Shown here piece by piece: positions 9,473 to 13,558 of a stretch of 38,303 bases of DNA. The number at the start of each line of letters is the position of its first letter. Position 1 is the first letter of the stretch. A program made the position numbers and the translations under genes. Under the pieces are notes generated by a model. It ran no database searches and was not told the DNA's origin. It saw only the letters and a list, made by a program, of their open reading frames with translations. Source of the stretch: a virus. The stretch is taken from positions 1 through 38,303 of the IMG/VR virus record IMGVR_UViG_3300013137_000048; one strand, written 5' to 3'.

Positions 9473-9724
9473 TCATGTATTTGTTCTAACCATATATTTT
9501 CTCTTACATCTCCGACACTCAACGATTATCGGCATATTACACGGAGCCCCACCTGGAAGGATAAAAGCGATTCTTCCTTTGTGCTGAAACAGGGCTTGCC
9601 CACAATTATTGCAAAAAAACATATGAACCTCATCTGGGTCATCTCCCCTATCTACTACTACTGTAGTTACAGGTATCTCTTTCTCAACCAGAATATTCTC
9701 AACCGTTGTTACTTTAACAATCAT
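9473..9724 (-). CDS. Zinc-ribbon protein
   Basis: 83 aa. The N-terminal half is acidic; the C-terminal half has CNNCGQALFQHKGR and ECRRCKRKYMV, a CxxC/CxxC zinc ribbon with an additional Cys between. The ATG overlaps the terminase stop (ATGA), so it is translated with TerL. It could help terminase or portal bind DNA, or bind host RNA polymerase; the sequence alone does not decide. Confidence 0.6.
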   Translation of the reverse strand: MIVKVTTVENILVEKEIPVTTVVVDRGDDPDEVHMFFCNNCGQALFQHKGRIAFILPGGAPCNMPIIVECRRCKRKYMVRTNT

Positions 9725-12700
9725 TGTCTGTCAAAACGATTTAACGAATAAGCGTCCACTTTTGGTAATTTAACATTTCCAAACTTAGATAGGTCAATTC
9801 CGATTTGTTTACCGTTCTTCATTACAGCAGTTAAAATCTTCTGAGTATCTTCCCTATGCAAAATACTTCCAGAACCAGCATCTATCCACCTGATATGTTT
9901 TAGGGCATACCTACTGGCATCACAATTTGAAACCAATATTCCGTTAGCAAAATACATCCCTGGTCCAACTTTTAGGTTATAGACTTTTCTTTTTTGGTCT
10001 TTTGACACACCAACGAGAGCAATAGATCGACTTAGAATATTTGTTAATAGTGAAAGTTTGGTTGCAAGTTGGACAAGTTTTTTGAATATTGTCAACACCG
10101 GATATTCGCCGATATTTTGATTTGCAGTTATTGGAGCAAAATCTTGACGAATAATTTGTGGAAGTAAAAACTGTTTTACATACCTCACAGTTAAACTCTT
10201 TCGGTTTGATCGAGCCGATTGAGATTTGCCAATGCTTCGAGTGCCATATTCTACCCTCCTTACTGGCGTGCCATTCTTTTGTAAGTTCTCTAATATCCGC
10301 CAAATGTTTTGTCCCTCTTTTTCTATATTCACCATCTTCCCATTTGAGTTTTGCATGAAAAGACCTATGTTCTGATTTTTTAACCAAAAATAAATTAGAT
10401 ATGGCATTATTTCTAGTATTAAAATCCCGATGGTGTACCTCAAAACCGATTGGAATAATCCCATTAAACGACGACCAAATTGCGGTGTGTAGCCGTTTGT
10501 GGTTAGAGCACCCCCCTCCTGGTAGGTGATATTTTCCATCCCAATTATATGTTCTGCCTTGGAATTTAATTTTATTTGGTGTATCGGCAAAAATCCTTTC
10601 TTCGTAGCTATCGGATGATTTGGAGTGCATATTAGTTCGTTTCCATTACTAAATTTATATCTATTTGTATTATATATCCCTGTGCATCCACAGTCAATAA
10701 CAGGAAAGTATCCTAGTGGAGTTTCAACCAAATCATCTACTCTAATATCTTCAATATTTACTTTTCCCGCCTTAGTTAAAACCTTAGTTCCGGCAACAAA
10801 ACAATAATGGTCATTTTGGTGGGTGTCCAAGTCCTCAATCTTCTCGTCATCGTAAACCAAAGAGGGAAGGGTAGTAATTAGTTCTTTACAGTTTTCAGCT
10901 ATCATCCAATAGGGTTTTCCATCCGGAGCAATAGACAACCATTGGTGCATAGCCGTCCAACCTCCAATACGGTCATTACTGGCTGGTTGAATAAGAATAT
11001 TATTTCCAGCTCTAGCAAACTGGTTGGCAATACTCATACTCATATCGTTTCCTCTGGTAAACATGGCAGGATCACCCCTAACCCAAGACAATTCTTTGAC
11101 ATCTAATCCAAATCTTCTCATTTCCCTTTTAATAGCTCCAGCCCATTCAGTAGGTGTCTTTTCAACTCCGGTTACTTCCATAAAAGTCCAAACTCGGTTA
11201 AAACTGGTTCCCTCATGTTTTACCACCTCTATTGCCGACAATTCAAATGCAAATGGGGCAGTTCTTCCCCAGTCCATTCCTGCAACAAAAGTGAACGATT
11301 TTGAAGGAATAAACGGTTGACAGACATGAAGATGGTTTCTAAACTCAGAAAAGAATTGTCCGGAAAAGATATTCCAATCTCCCTCCAAATATGCCTTAAC
11401 CATGTCTGGAGGCAAATCCTTTAGTCTTTTTATGTAATTAGGGTCAGCATCAGTTAGTGCCATGTTGTCCTGAACTTTAGCCTGAACGAAATCAAAATCT
11501 TCCGAATCTTCATTTGGATTAAAGTTTCTGTCAACAAAAATTCTTTTTACCCACTGGTGTCCACGTCCGCCAGGGTTTCCCGTAAGAAGCATGGTTGGAA
11601 TCCCGCCATTGTTTTTAAACTCCAGATTTGAAGTACGGTTCGATGATCTTAATATTTTAAAAGTATCTTCTTCGTGCTGTGTCACCTCATCAATACTTAT
11701 ATCCTCAAACTCACGCCCCTGATAGGTAAAAACGTCATCAACATTTTGTAGATAGGAAAACTCGGTTATAGAACCGTTAGGCCAGTAAATTGCTTTTTCC
11801 GACTTATTAAACCAAGTTCGTGTTTGTGGATATTCCTTAAAAAACATCCGAATATGGTTTGAGAGTAATTCCGGATAAGAACGTCGGATAATTAATCCCT
11901 TAGTATTTGGATACTTTAACCGCCTAATCATTTCCCTAGCACGAACTAAGTAGCTATTATGAGTAACTATAAAATCATCGGTTAAATATAATCCGTCCTC
12001 ATCATCTAATGTGATGCACTGTGCTTCTTCTAATCCCCAATATTTTATAGATTTTAATCTTAAATACGAACTCCCCAAACCACCATTAAATGGTAAGTTC
12101 CTTTTTTTCTTTCTCTCTAACTTGAATATTTTACTATTATCTCGTAATCGTATGTATGTTCGATATTTGTCTAAACACATAACCCTTATTCCATCCTTAC
12201 CAATATAACTAGACCTTTGTTTACTGATAGTCGCCTTACCACCCAGACTTTTAATAATAAATCGCACATCTTCTGATAACTGTTTACTAACAGTGGTGTA
12301 TTCACAATGTCCCCTGTCGTCCATGTAACCATCACCATCCATCAAACCTCTCAACAGTTCTAATCTCTGTTCTATAGAACCCATTAAATACACACTTGGT
12401 ATAAATTTATCTTCAGACTTTTTATTCCATAATCCAAATTTCTCAATTTCTTTTTTTAATTTAAGTCTGTCATTTATACAGTGAGATAGTTTTCTGCTTC
12501 TACTATTGACGGGATAACCATCCCTTCTCACATTTTCAACGATATCATTATCGTCACTGGTAAACACAGTTGATTTACCTCTGAAACATCCTTCTGCAAT
12601 TAGAACCCCTAAAGTATATGGTTTTATGGGTAGACTCTTTTCTTCATATTCTATTTCTGAACACATTGGGATTAAGATGTTTGGAGTTACAGTGGAGGTA

Positions 12701-13089
12701 GACTTTTTAACTTTGTCTAATCTATTTATTAATTCAGATGTCGAACTCACAATCCAGCCATCGCTTCTTCCAACTATTTTATACTTCCACAAATGATCTA
12801 ATGTTGCCAATGTTTTTGAACCATCTATAAAAGATACTTCATATAATGGTTTTACACCTTGTGGATGTATTTGTTTAACTCTGGCAACCTTACCCGATGG
12901 AGTTATCAACTCTTGTCCAATTTTTACATCTCCCATAGTTATAAATCCGTTAGGTGTAAGCAAAAAAGAGTGTAAAGATTGGGCTTTTCCACCTCCCTTG
13001 GCTCCGCCATAAAACAAAACTGGCGTTTTATAGCTCTTTTCCAGGGCAAGTTTCTGCTTAGGTTGCAGACTTATCTTTATCTGATTCAT
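9721..13089 (-). CDS. Large terminase subunit precursor with two inteins
   Basis: The packaging motor: ATPase plus DNA-cutting nuclease. ATG at 13089 is preferred over an in-frame TTG at 13098; neither has a good Shine-Dalgarno, and the start overlaps the TerS end, so coupling is likely. After removal of two inteins (343 and 293 aa), the mature protein is about 486 aa, normal for TerL. Walker A is split: YGGAKGGGK is followed by intein 1, then SYLVRAREM. Walker B is EDISIDEVTQ; the coupling motif is LLTGNPGGRG. The nuclease motifs are FVAGMDWGRTAPF, WVRGDPA and NDHY/CDASRYAL, the last split by intein 2. So both the motor and the nuclease are inactive until splicing. Confidence 0.88.
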   Translation of the reverse strand: MNQIKISLQPKQKLALEKSYKTPVLFYGGAKGGGKAQSLHSFLLTPNGFITMGDVKIGQELITPSGKVARVKQIHPQGVKPLYEVSFIDGSKTLATLDHLWKYKIVGRSDGWIVSSTSELINRLDKVKKSTSTVTPNILIPMCSEIEYEEKSLPIKPYTLGVLIAEGCFRGKSTVFTSDDNDIVENVRRDGYPVNSRSRKLSHCINDRLKLKKEIEKFGLWNKKSEDKFIPSVYLMGSIEQRLELLRGLMDGDGYMDDRGHCEYTTVSKQLSEDVRFIIKSLGGKATISKQRSSYIGKDGIRVMCLDKYRTYIRLRDNSKIFKLERKKKRNLPFNGGLGSSYLRLKSIKYWGLEEAQCITLDDEDGLYLTDDFIVTHNSYLVRAREMIRRLKYPNTKGLIIRRSYPELLSNHIRMFFKEYPQTRTWFNKSEKAIYWPNGSITEFSYLQNVDDVFTYQGREFEDISIDEVTQHEEDTFKILRSSNRTSNLEFKNNGGIPTMLLTGNPGGRGHQWVKRIFVDRNFNPNEDSEDFDFVQAKVQDNMALTDADPNYIKRLKDLPPDMVKAYLEGDWNIFSGQFFSEFRNHLHVCQPFIPSKSFTFVAGMDWGRTAPFAFELSAIEVVKHEGTSFNRVWTFMEVTGVEKTPTEWAGAIKREMRRFGLDVKELSWVRGDPAMFTRGNDMSMSIANQFARAGNNILIQPASNDRIGGWTAMHQWLSIAPDGKPYWMIAENCKELITTLPSLVYDDEKIEDLDTHQNDHYCFVAGTKVLTKAGKVNIEDIRVDDLVETPLGYFPVIDCGCTGIYNTNRYKFSNGNELICTPNHPIATKKGFLPIHQIKLNSKAEHIIGMENITYQEGGALTTNGYTPQFGRRLMGLFQSVLRYTIGILILEIMPYLIYFWLKNQNIGLFMQNSNGKMVNIEKEGQNIWRILENLQKNGTPVRRVEYGTRSIGKSQSARSNRKSLTVRYVKQFLLPQIIRQDFAPITANQNIGEYPVLTIFKKLVQLATKLSLLTNILSRSIALVGVSKDQKRKVYNLKVGPGMYFANGILVSNCDASRYALKHIRWIDAGSGSILHREDTQKILTAVMKNGKQIGIDLSKFGNVKLPKVDAYSLNRFDRQ
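9925..10803 (-). mobile_element. Intein 2 in the TerL nuclease motif, with overprinted HNH frame
   Basis: 293 aa inserted between Y and C of the nuclease motif NDHY/CDASRYAL. Block A is CFVAGTKVLTKAGKVNIEDI with Cys1; block B is LICTPNHPI (TxxH pattern); block F/G is KVYNLKVGPG and YFANGILVSN followed by Cys +1. The residue before the terminal Asn is Ser rather than the usual His. The region between blocks B and F, about 218 codons, has no LAGLIDADG in the intein frame. It is open but featureless there, because the nuclease is encoded in another frame. Splicing residues look intact. Confidence 0.85.
9977..10630 (-). CDS. HNH homing endonuclease encoded out of frame inside intein 2
   Basis: 217 aa in the -1 frame relative to TerL. 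HNH core: RLHTAIWSSFNGIIPIGFEV then HHRDFNTRNNAISNLF, with a trailing EHRSFH (H66/H67, N74/N75, H88/H92). Two zinc clusters follow: CEVC...FCSNNC (148-169) and CPTC...YCSRWC (186-208). The frame starts inside intein block B and stops exactly at block F, filling the usual endonuclease slot. ATG 10630 has only a weak GGAA upstream. The first 13 residues are a shadow of block B, so the natural start may differ. The enzyme would cut intein-free terL genes to spread the intein; this is the family role, inferred here. Confidence 0.75.
   Translation of the reverse strand: MHSKSSDSYEERIFADTPNKIKFQGRTYNWDGKYHLPGGGCSNHKRLHTAIWSSFNGIIPIGFEVHHRDFNTRNNAISNLFLVKKSEHRSFHAKLKWEDGEYRKRGTKHLADIRELTKEWHASKEGRIWHSKHWQISIGSIKPKEFNCEVCKTVFTSTNYSSRFCSNNCKSKYRRISGVDNIQKTCPTCNQTFTINKYSKSIYCSRWCVKRPKKKSL
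11956..12984 (-). mobile_element. Intein 1 in the TerL Walker A motif, LAGLIDADG type
   Basis: 343 aa between Lys and Ser of the P-loop GGGK/S. It begins with Ala (AQSLHSFLLTPNGFITMGDV) instead of Cys or Ser; block B is KTLATLDHLWKY; two dodecapeptide endonuclease motifs are LGVLIAEGCF and LLRGLMDGDGYM; the end is LYLTDDFIVTHN followed by Ser +1. Ala1 inteins splice by direct attack of the +1 residue on the N-terminal junction. Acidic residues are present in both LAGLIDADG motifs, so the nuclease may be active. Confidence 0.85.
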
Positions 13090-13558
13090 AGTCAACAATA
13101 AGTATTTGGATATTTCCTTGTTCCTTTATTTCCCCCTGAAGTTGACCTTTTAGTTTTAAAGCAGTTTCCAGATATTTGTGCCTAACTCCATAATCTGGCA
13201 ATTCAACAAAATTATCTCCTGTTCCCTGAACTTTATTGGCTTCTCTCAGTCCTTCTTTCAAATCAAGAGCCAATTCTTCATCTGTAAGTCCAATAGCGTC
13301 CAGAATGTCCATCATTCTTCTTTTTACCTCCATAGTTTCAATCTTGGAATTAGCGTTAGATGCCATTGATTTTGTATATCCAGCAGCCAGAGCAGCCTCC
13401 TTTGAACTCATGCCCGAAATTTTATTCTTTATGTACCGATTAACTCTGGGATCGATATTTACTCCTTCCATTTTCTTAACCTCCACCCTTAACCGATTAG
13501 TGGGTTTGGGTAAAACTACAGGAACATCTTTTGGATTAATTCTTGGTTTACGATCCAT
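13058..13558 (-). CDS. Small terminase subunit
   Basis: 166 aa. A helix-turn-helix region, IKNKISGMSSKEAALAAGYT, then a helix (RRMMDILDAIGLTDEELALD) and a C-terminal beta/tail segment (IQILIVDYESDKDKS) match TerS proteins that recognise phage DNA and present it to TerL. AGGAG lies seven nt before the ATG. The 3' end overlaps terL by 32 nt, and the start overlaps the 85-aa membrane protein gene. Length fits the family. Confidence 0.75.
   Translation of the reverse strand: MDRKPRINPKDVPVVLPKPTNRLRVEVKKMEGVNIDPRVNRYIKNKISGMSSKEAALAAGYTKSMASNANSKIETMEVKRRMMDILDAIGLTDEELALDLKEGLREANKVQGTGDNFVELPDYGVRHKYLETALKLKGQLQGEIKEQGNIQILIVDYESDKDKSAT

Follow-up and report, generated by a model that had tools for sequence, protein, structure and literature searches.

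A putative composite mobile element: an HNH endonuclease gene overprinted on the linker of a viral terminase intein

Inteins bearing an endonuclease are usually in-frame fusions of a splicing domain with a nuclease domain of the LAGLIDADG or HNH type. In the fractured genes, reportedly described by Dassa et al. in 2009, the intein is split and a free-standing endonuclease lies between its halves. The gene of I-HmuI resides in a group I intron. The ShiLan domain of mycobacteriophage DNA methylases is an HNH with zinc fingers encoded out of frame in a host gene that stays open throughout, and its patchy distribution suggests homing (PMC11855218, 2025). The TerL inteins of mycobacteriophages all lie in the ATPase domain of the terminase (PMC5050341) and TerL of cyanophage Mic1 has two inteins, one in the ATPase and one in the nuclease domain (PMC7156551). 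An out-of-frame HNH inside a splicing intein was not found described in the literature searched; a preprint by Gosselin et al. (2025) on a 'non-canonical architecture', outside that search, may contain cases.

The terminase ORF of the window, which is the whole stretch of 38,303 bases of viral DNA that was analysed, matches Terminase_3 (PF04466, E=1e-6) and PHROG terminase families, and it contains two inteins (Table 1). Intein 1 is the contrast case, its LAGLIDADG nuclease domain being in frame; its first residue is seemingly Ala and not Cys (GGGK/AQSLHS; slashes mark intein boundaries here and below). Intein 2 is inserted in the TerL nuclease-domain motif DHY/CDASRYA, with C+1 within the motif. 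Blocks A, B, F and G, the C1 nucleophile, the terminal Asn and Cys+1 are all present, as the first-pass annotation had noted for the splicing blocks, and both a Hint_2 match and the NCBIfam intein C-terminal model TIGR01443, above its cut-off, were obtained. The penultimate residue, commonly His in inteins, is Ser. When the AlphaFold model of the TerL-frame protein was compared by Foldseek to solved inteins, the best match was the gp41-1 intein (E=5e-7, target-normalised TM 0.85). The Hint halves are modelled with a pLDDT of 82-98, and the linker that joins them, mostly predicted to be disordered, with one of 36-75 and for the most part near 40. Intein 2 is best read as self-splicing in TerL.

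The nuclease of intein 2 is encoded in the -1 frame relative to TerL. Searches with the 217-aa product identified the HNH domain PF13392 (HNH_3, E=1e-13) and the PHROG HNH family phrog_15471 (E=2e-33), and the protein has the features of an HNH homing endonuclease, namely the HNH/His-Me motif and two Cys4 zinc clusters, both recognised in the first-pass annotation. Its AlphaFold model has a mean pLDDT of 89.8. The best match in a fold search, though weak, was to I-HmuI (1u3e), and a PDB sequence search with the HNH profile gave no match. The start codon lies inside block B and the stop overlaps the start of block F, so that the nuclease frame runs from one block to the other, as had been described. 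Across this stretch the TerL frame has no stop, against 25 in the third frame. The first reading had set this zero against about a dozen stops expected in random sequence; an expectation conditioned on one of the two frames is a fairer test. With the HNH protein fixed and codons drawn at the usage of the window, 6.2 TerL-frame stops are expected and none of 4,000 simulations was stop-free; drawing codons at the usage of the TerL gene gives an expectation of 7.3 (zero stops in 0 of 400 resamplings). Conversely, fixing the TerL-frame protein gives an expectation of 14 stops for the HNH frame.

Table 1. Features of the window and of its TerL gene, intein 2 and the overprinted HNH gene.
Feature	Coordinates	Strand	Basis or remark
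Window, 38,303-base virus record			IMG/VR IMGVR_UViG_3300013137_000048
TerL gene, single ORF, 1125-aa precursor with two inteins	9721-13098	(-)	ORF, Terminase_3, PHROG
Intein 1, P-loop, conventional, in-frame LAGLIDADG domain	11956-12984	(-)	PF14528 E=1e-8, PF05204
Intein 2, 293 aa in TerL frame	9925-10803	(-)	Hint_2, TIGR01443, AlphaFold/Foldseek
Intein 2 block A (C1)	10774-10803	(-)	
Intein 2 block B (TPNH), NELICTPNHPIA	10606-10641	(-)	
HNH start region: ATG 10628-10630, weak Shine-Dalgarno GGAA 10641-10644	10628-10644	(-)	
HNH endonuclease gene, 217 aa, ATG start, TerL -1 frame (offset 2)	9977-10630	(-)	PF13392, phrog_15471, AlphaFold
G_GGG_GGT, sole canonical -1 slippery heptamer upstream of conserved HNH core	10510-10516	(-)	Probably incidental
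HNH_3 domain, HNH residues 46-88	10367-10495	(-)	PF13392; invariant His and Asn
Zinc cluster 1 of HNH protein (CxxC...CxxxC)	10124-10189	(-)	Cys invariant in alignment
Zinc cluster 2 of HNH protein (CxxC...CxxxC)	10007-10075	(-)	Cys nearly invariant
Intein 2 blocks F and G, with S-N as the last residues ahead of C+1	9925-9984	(-)	Sequence VYNLKVGPGMYFANGILVSN

Intein 2 shares with the canonical endonuclease-bearing type a Hint domain and a homing-type nuclease between blocks B and F, but the nuclease is in the other frame, hence a separate translation product; the HNH is at -1 in the window and in every contiguous relative. In-frame inteins of this kind were seen only in three loci (L157, L162 and L170), whose long ORFs carry an HNH of a distant subfamily in frame with Hint. 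Fractured genes resemble the intein 2 family in having the nuclease as its own ORF between Hint halves, an arrangement found exactly in about 20 TerL relatives. The window and 144 distinct sequences differ from them by a continuous intein ORF overprinted on the nuclease, which would entail splicing in cis; host gene and intein of the window form one uninterrupted TerL frame and not two ORFs. I-HmuI has an HNH_3-type domain like the window protein but is group I intron-encoded; here the continuous TerL frame and the Hint blocks would account for the insert, as opposed to a group I intron. The ShiLan domain has the same combination of out-of-frame HNH with zinc fingers and open host frame, at the same offset. 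It differs from intein 2 by the lack of a splicing domain, a dispensable methylase as host and a ribosome-binding site that was not found (PMC11855218), while the intein 2 family has intact Hint halves, both detected in the window, a TerL host, Shine-Dalgarno enrichment and a far larger membership. The mycobacteriophage inteins (PMC5050341) are alike in host and unlike in site. The Mic1 nuclease-domain intein (PMC7156551) occupies the same site as intein 2 (DH./C..N/CDALRY), without an HNH in any frame.

A scan of viral contigs with a single protein gave no loci. When viral and genome contigs were scanned with an HNH alignment, 85 loci passed a first filter that required the HNH to be enclosed by a longer +1-frame ORF; of these, L120 and L142 were left out for want of an intein C-block. 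Another search used an intein alignment, with the C-terminus of the intein as its key, and brought 77 further locus identifiers, eight of them on contigs of the first search; the HNH was out of frame, at the same offset and under a contiguous ORF in 77/77, the match that retrieved the locus covering only the N-terminal part of the intein in 18 of them. A protein search of phage records revealed an HNH under the terminase gene, again at this offset, in Acinetobacter phage Highwayman, Tetrasphaera phage TJE1 and Rhodobacteraceae phage LS06. The total from the two collection searches and the phage records is 156 loci with 144 distinct HNH cores, the HNH being out of frame at one offset throughout. 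Genome matches span many bacterial phyla and archaea (Thermoplasmatales, Nitrosotalea), and one overprinted locus is on a Halobacterium plasmid with phage genes. The HNH start lies a median of 89 aa past C1 and its end 19 aa ahead of the intein end. In nearly all loci the host sequence is the TerL nuclease-domain motif, in slightly varying registers (nh/CxDALRY, dha/CDALRY, ida/CRYA). At L144 the overprinted intein is elsewhere, just before a Walker B-like motif (C/SFVDELDE), and this different insertion point extends the element type beyond the TerL nuclease-domain site. Judged from this sequence collection, the overprinted HNH intein is a widespread element type and no single oddity.

The two frames appear to be selected differently. 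Stops in the +1 frame of the HNH core average 5.65 in 46 free-standing and 5.9 in 20 split relatives, with a minimum of 1, against 0 in all 79 overprinted ones; since an open frame was how overprinted loci were initially picked out, the zero count is partly a matter of definition, and the bimodality with respect to the relatives together with the Hint-keyed search lessen this bias but do not remove it. By synonymous resampling, 4.3 of the 79 overprinted cores would be stop-free by chance. The avoidance is also visible inside the HNH genes: an ATG followed by A, which creates TGA in the TerL frame, occurs in 0/103 cases in overprinted against 36/112 in free-standing genes, and the A directly after the ATG start codon in 0/66 against 14/34. 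By these counts the need for an open TerL frame bends the HNH protein itself. Between closest pairs, which are not independent as several have a sequence in common, the synonymous fraction is 0.405 in the HNH frame against 0.192 for random mutation, and 0.218 in the TerL frame against 0.207, the excess being confined to the former. Third positions of HNH codons coincide with second positions of the TerL frame, and their variability matches that of the free-standing relatives. Stop avoidance, synonymous fractions and third-position variability together indicate that the nuclease is under purifying selection on its sequence, and that the TerL-frame linker is neutral and kept only stop-free; the AlphaFold models, confident for the HNH and of low pLDDT over most of the linker, agree with this. 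Sequence-level selection on the linker was rejected on the same variability and a neutral synonymous to nonsynonymous ratio. The proposal of the first-pass annotation that both frames are selected thus holds for sequence in the HNH frame and only for the exclusion of stops in the TerL frame.

Translation of the nuclease from its own start is suggested by the comparison of relatives. ATG opens 66/79 overprinted HNH ORFs, and ATG/GTG starts are conserved. Shine-Dalgarno cores (GGAG, GAGG or AGGA, 4-17 bases upstream of the start) precede 36/76 HNH starts (47%) against 314/3270 other ATGs in the same genes (10%, P=1e-16), the former figure being somewhat inflated by picking the better Shine-Dalgarno where there were several candidate starts, although most ORFs had one or two. 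Purines upstream of HNH starts peak at -11. About half of the relatives are without a strong Shine-Dalgarno, and many have a strong one in the place that corresponds to the start region of the window. The alternative with most left in its favour, yet improbable, is that programmed -1 frameshifting yields an intein-N-HNH fusion and that the nuclease is made only via slippage from the TerL frame. The canonical heptamer of the window (Table 1) and the presence of some such heptamer in 23/79 relatives would agree with it. Where -1 slippage would help, however, 30 heptamers are observed against 28.3 after codon shuffling, none has a conserved position among the 79 relatives, starts and Shine-Dalgarno sequences are retained, and the fusion product would be without blocks F and G. 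Frameshifting was rejected as a general mechanism for lack of heptamer enrichment. Slippage at homopolymers into an intein-HNH fusion, as had been suggested at first, is not supported in view of these counts and the relatives' own starts and ribosome-binding sites; GGATTTTTGCC (10586-10596) is no canonical -1 slippery heptamer. Conserved starts, Shine-Dalgarno enrichment and heptamers at chance frequency favour internal initiation, and the best general model is that the HNH is a separate, internally initiated protein, with a weak candidate site in the window.

We privilege, with a probability of about 0.88, the reading of intein 2 as a composite mobile element composed of a splicing domain in the TerL frame and a separate HNH homing gene in the -1 frame, which would home into terL and would have originated by invasion. 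A linker of some 190 residues, required only to be open, would connect the Hint halves, and the precursor would be made whole and then spliced. The -1 frame carries a complete HNH homing endonuclease gene, probably translated from its own start inside the terL message. The enzyme presumably cuts intein-free terL at the conserved nuclease-domain motif (D-H..DA-RY), and repair after the cut would copy in the intein together with the nuclease gene.

Two other readings of the locus are very unlikely. The insert could remain unspliced in TerL, as proposed for the ShiLan domain, in which an HNH likewise lies out of frame in a host gene that stays open and no splicing is detectable (PMC11855218); this accords poorly with an N-terminal Hint half in 75/75 testable loci and a C-block directly after the HNH in 83/85, with the C1, TxxH-type block B, terminal Asn and Cys/Ser/Thr+1 of the relatives' inteins, with the match of the TerL-frame model to solved inteins, and with the position of the insert, which interrupts a catalytic motif of TerL, on which packaging depends. 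The HNH could instead be a decaying remnant that is no longer made, its overlap a fossil, given that homing endonucleases commonly degenerate and that the window contributes just one sequence, placed on a long branch. Against decay, the catalytic His and Asn and the zinc Cys are invariant or nearly so across the alignment, closest pairs show purifying selection, start codons and ribosome-binding sites are kept, and the window ORF is intact. A sequencing or assembly error, with one-base changes at the homopolymers near both ends of the overlap hiding an in-frame fusion, is refuted by the comparison of relatives, since the same offset recurs in the 144 distinct sequences, isolate genomes TJE1 and Highwayman included, with 0 contiguous relatives in frame and the HNH stop preceding block F everywhere.

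Under the composite-element reading, closely related phages may differ by the presence of the intein, and this is the case for the relative Highwayman, which was compared to Acba_21, WCHABP12 and AP22. Highwayman is occupied (DA/intein/CRYAIEK); the same site is empty (DALRYALEK) in Acba_21, which shares 99.2% identity with it over the 909 terL bases immediately upstream, and in WCHABP12 (97.8% identity). The differences of Acba_21 are clustered in the first 25 bases 3' of the site (68% identical), beyond which identity is 100%, a pattern expected of a short co-conversion tract. This presence and absence between near-identical phages in the Highwayman group points to homing, which for the window would be by analogy. 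BP10 was dropped as an empty-site partner of Highwayman because their terminases are too divergent. This Acinetobacter phage (L010) has a related free-standing HNH just before terS and an intein-free terL, and its HNH belongs to the same supported subclade as that of Highwayman (L001), which is overprinted.

Free-standing HNH kin lie near a terL gene in 27/46 loci, and the Mic1 intein at the same terL site is nuclease-free. The likely origin is that a terL-adjacent free-standing HNH gene invaded a nuclease-free intein at this site, in the single stop-poor alternative frame. Loci L127-L161, mostly on rumen Selenomonadaceae contigs, form a well-supported clade of free-standing HNHs with several per assembly, which look like expanded copies. 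In the split relatives the HNH lies between the halves of the TerL intein. The N-half terminates close to where the HNH starts, and candidate C-half start codons, some with a strong Shine-Dalgarno, are found in front of the HNH stop or close to it. TerL-frame stops in relatives go together with this split organisation, and the frame is not routinely broken in continuous inteins. The separated C-block is in the same +1 frame in 18/21 loci, and all three forms, overprinted, split and free, occur together in one supported clade (SH-aLRT 95). The HNH family and terL site that overprinted and split forms have in common, the C-block frame and the mixed clade lead us to suggest, tentatively, that overprinted inteins are a distinct, widespread mobile class and also a bridge, from a free terL-targeting HNH gene to its entry into a nuclease-free intein in the stop-poor +1 frame, and then in some cases to splitting by later stops in the linker; the tree, with 70/141 inner branches under 80, is too weak for a direction among the three forms. 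The 21 loci include L102, on a Methanimicrococcus contig (1866-4146), in which the HNH and TerL frames are broken by TAG only. Read-through of TAG would leave both frames open and give a TerL of 760 aa with a full intein. Pyrrolysine is known from this host group, and TAG may accordingly be a sense codon in L102.

The overprinted arrangement is a blind spot of annotation: in the records of TJE1, Highwayman and LS06 the terminase is the only annotation over the HNH, and phrog_30251 matches the linker as terminase. PHROG families phrog_30251, phrog_15127 and phrog_35162, annotated as TerL and 'head protein', match TerL residues 816-852, 872-1062 and 1034-1062 (window 9925-10540). Profiles matching there suggest that some PHROG families are partly built on the overprinted linker and intein.

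The nuclease would be a separate gene overprinted on the linker of an intein, within an essential viral gene and across many lineages. It is a real and little-described way to build a mobile gene, present in phages of bacteria and archaea, and it supplies many natural cases of gene overlap where sequence is constrained in one frame and only stops are excluded from the other. The arrangement further illustrates by what path a free-standing homing gene could come to occupy an intein with no in-frame fusion, and it offers a testable route to natural split inteins.
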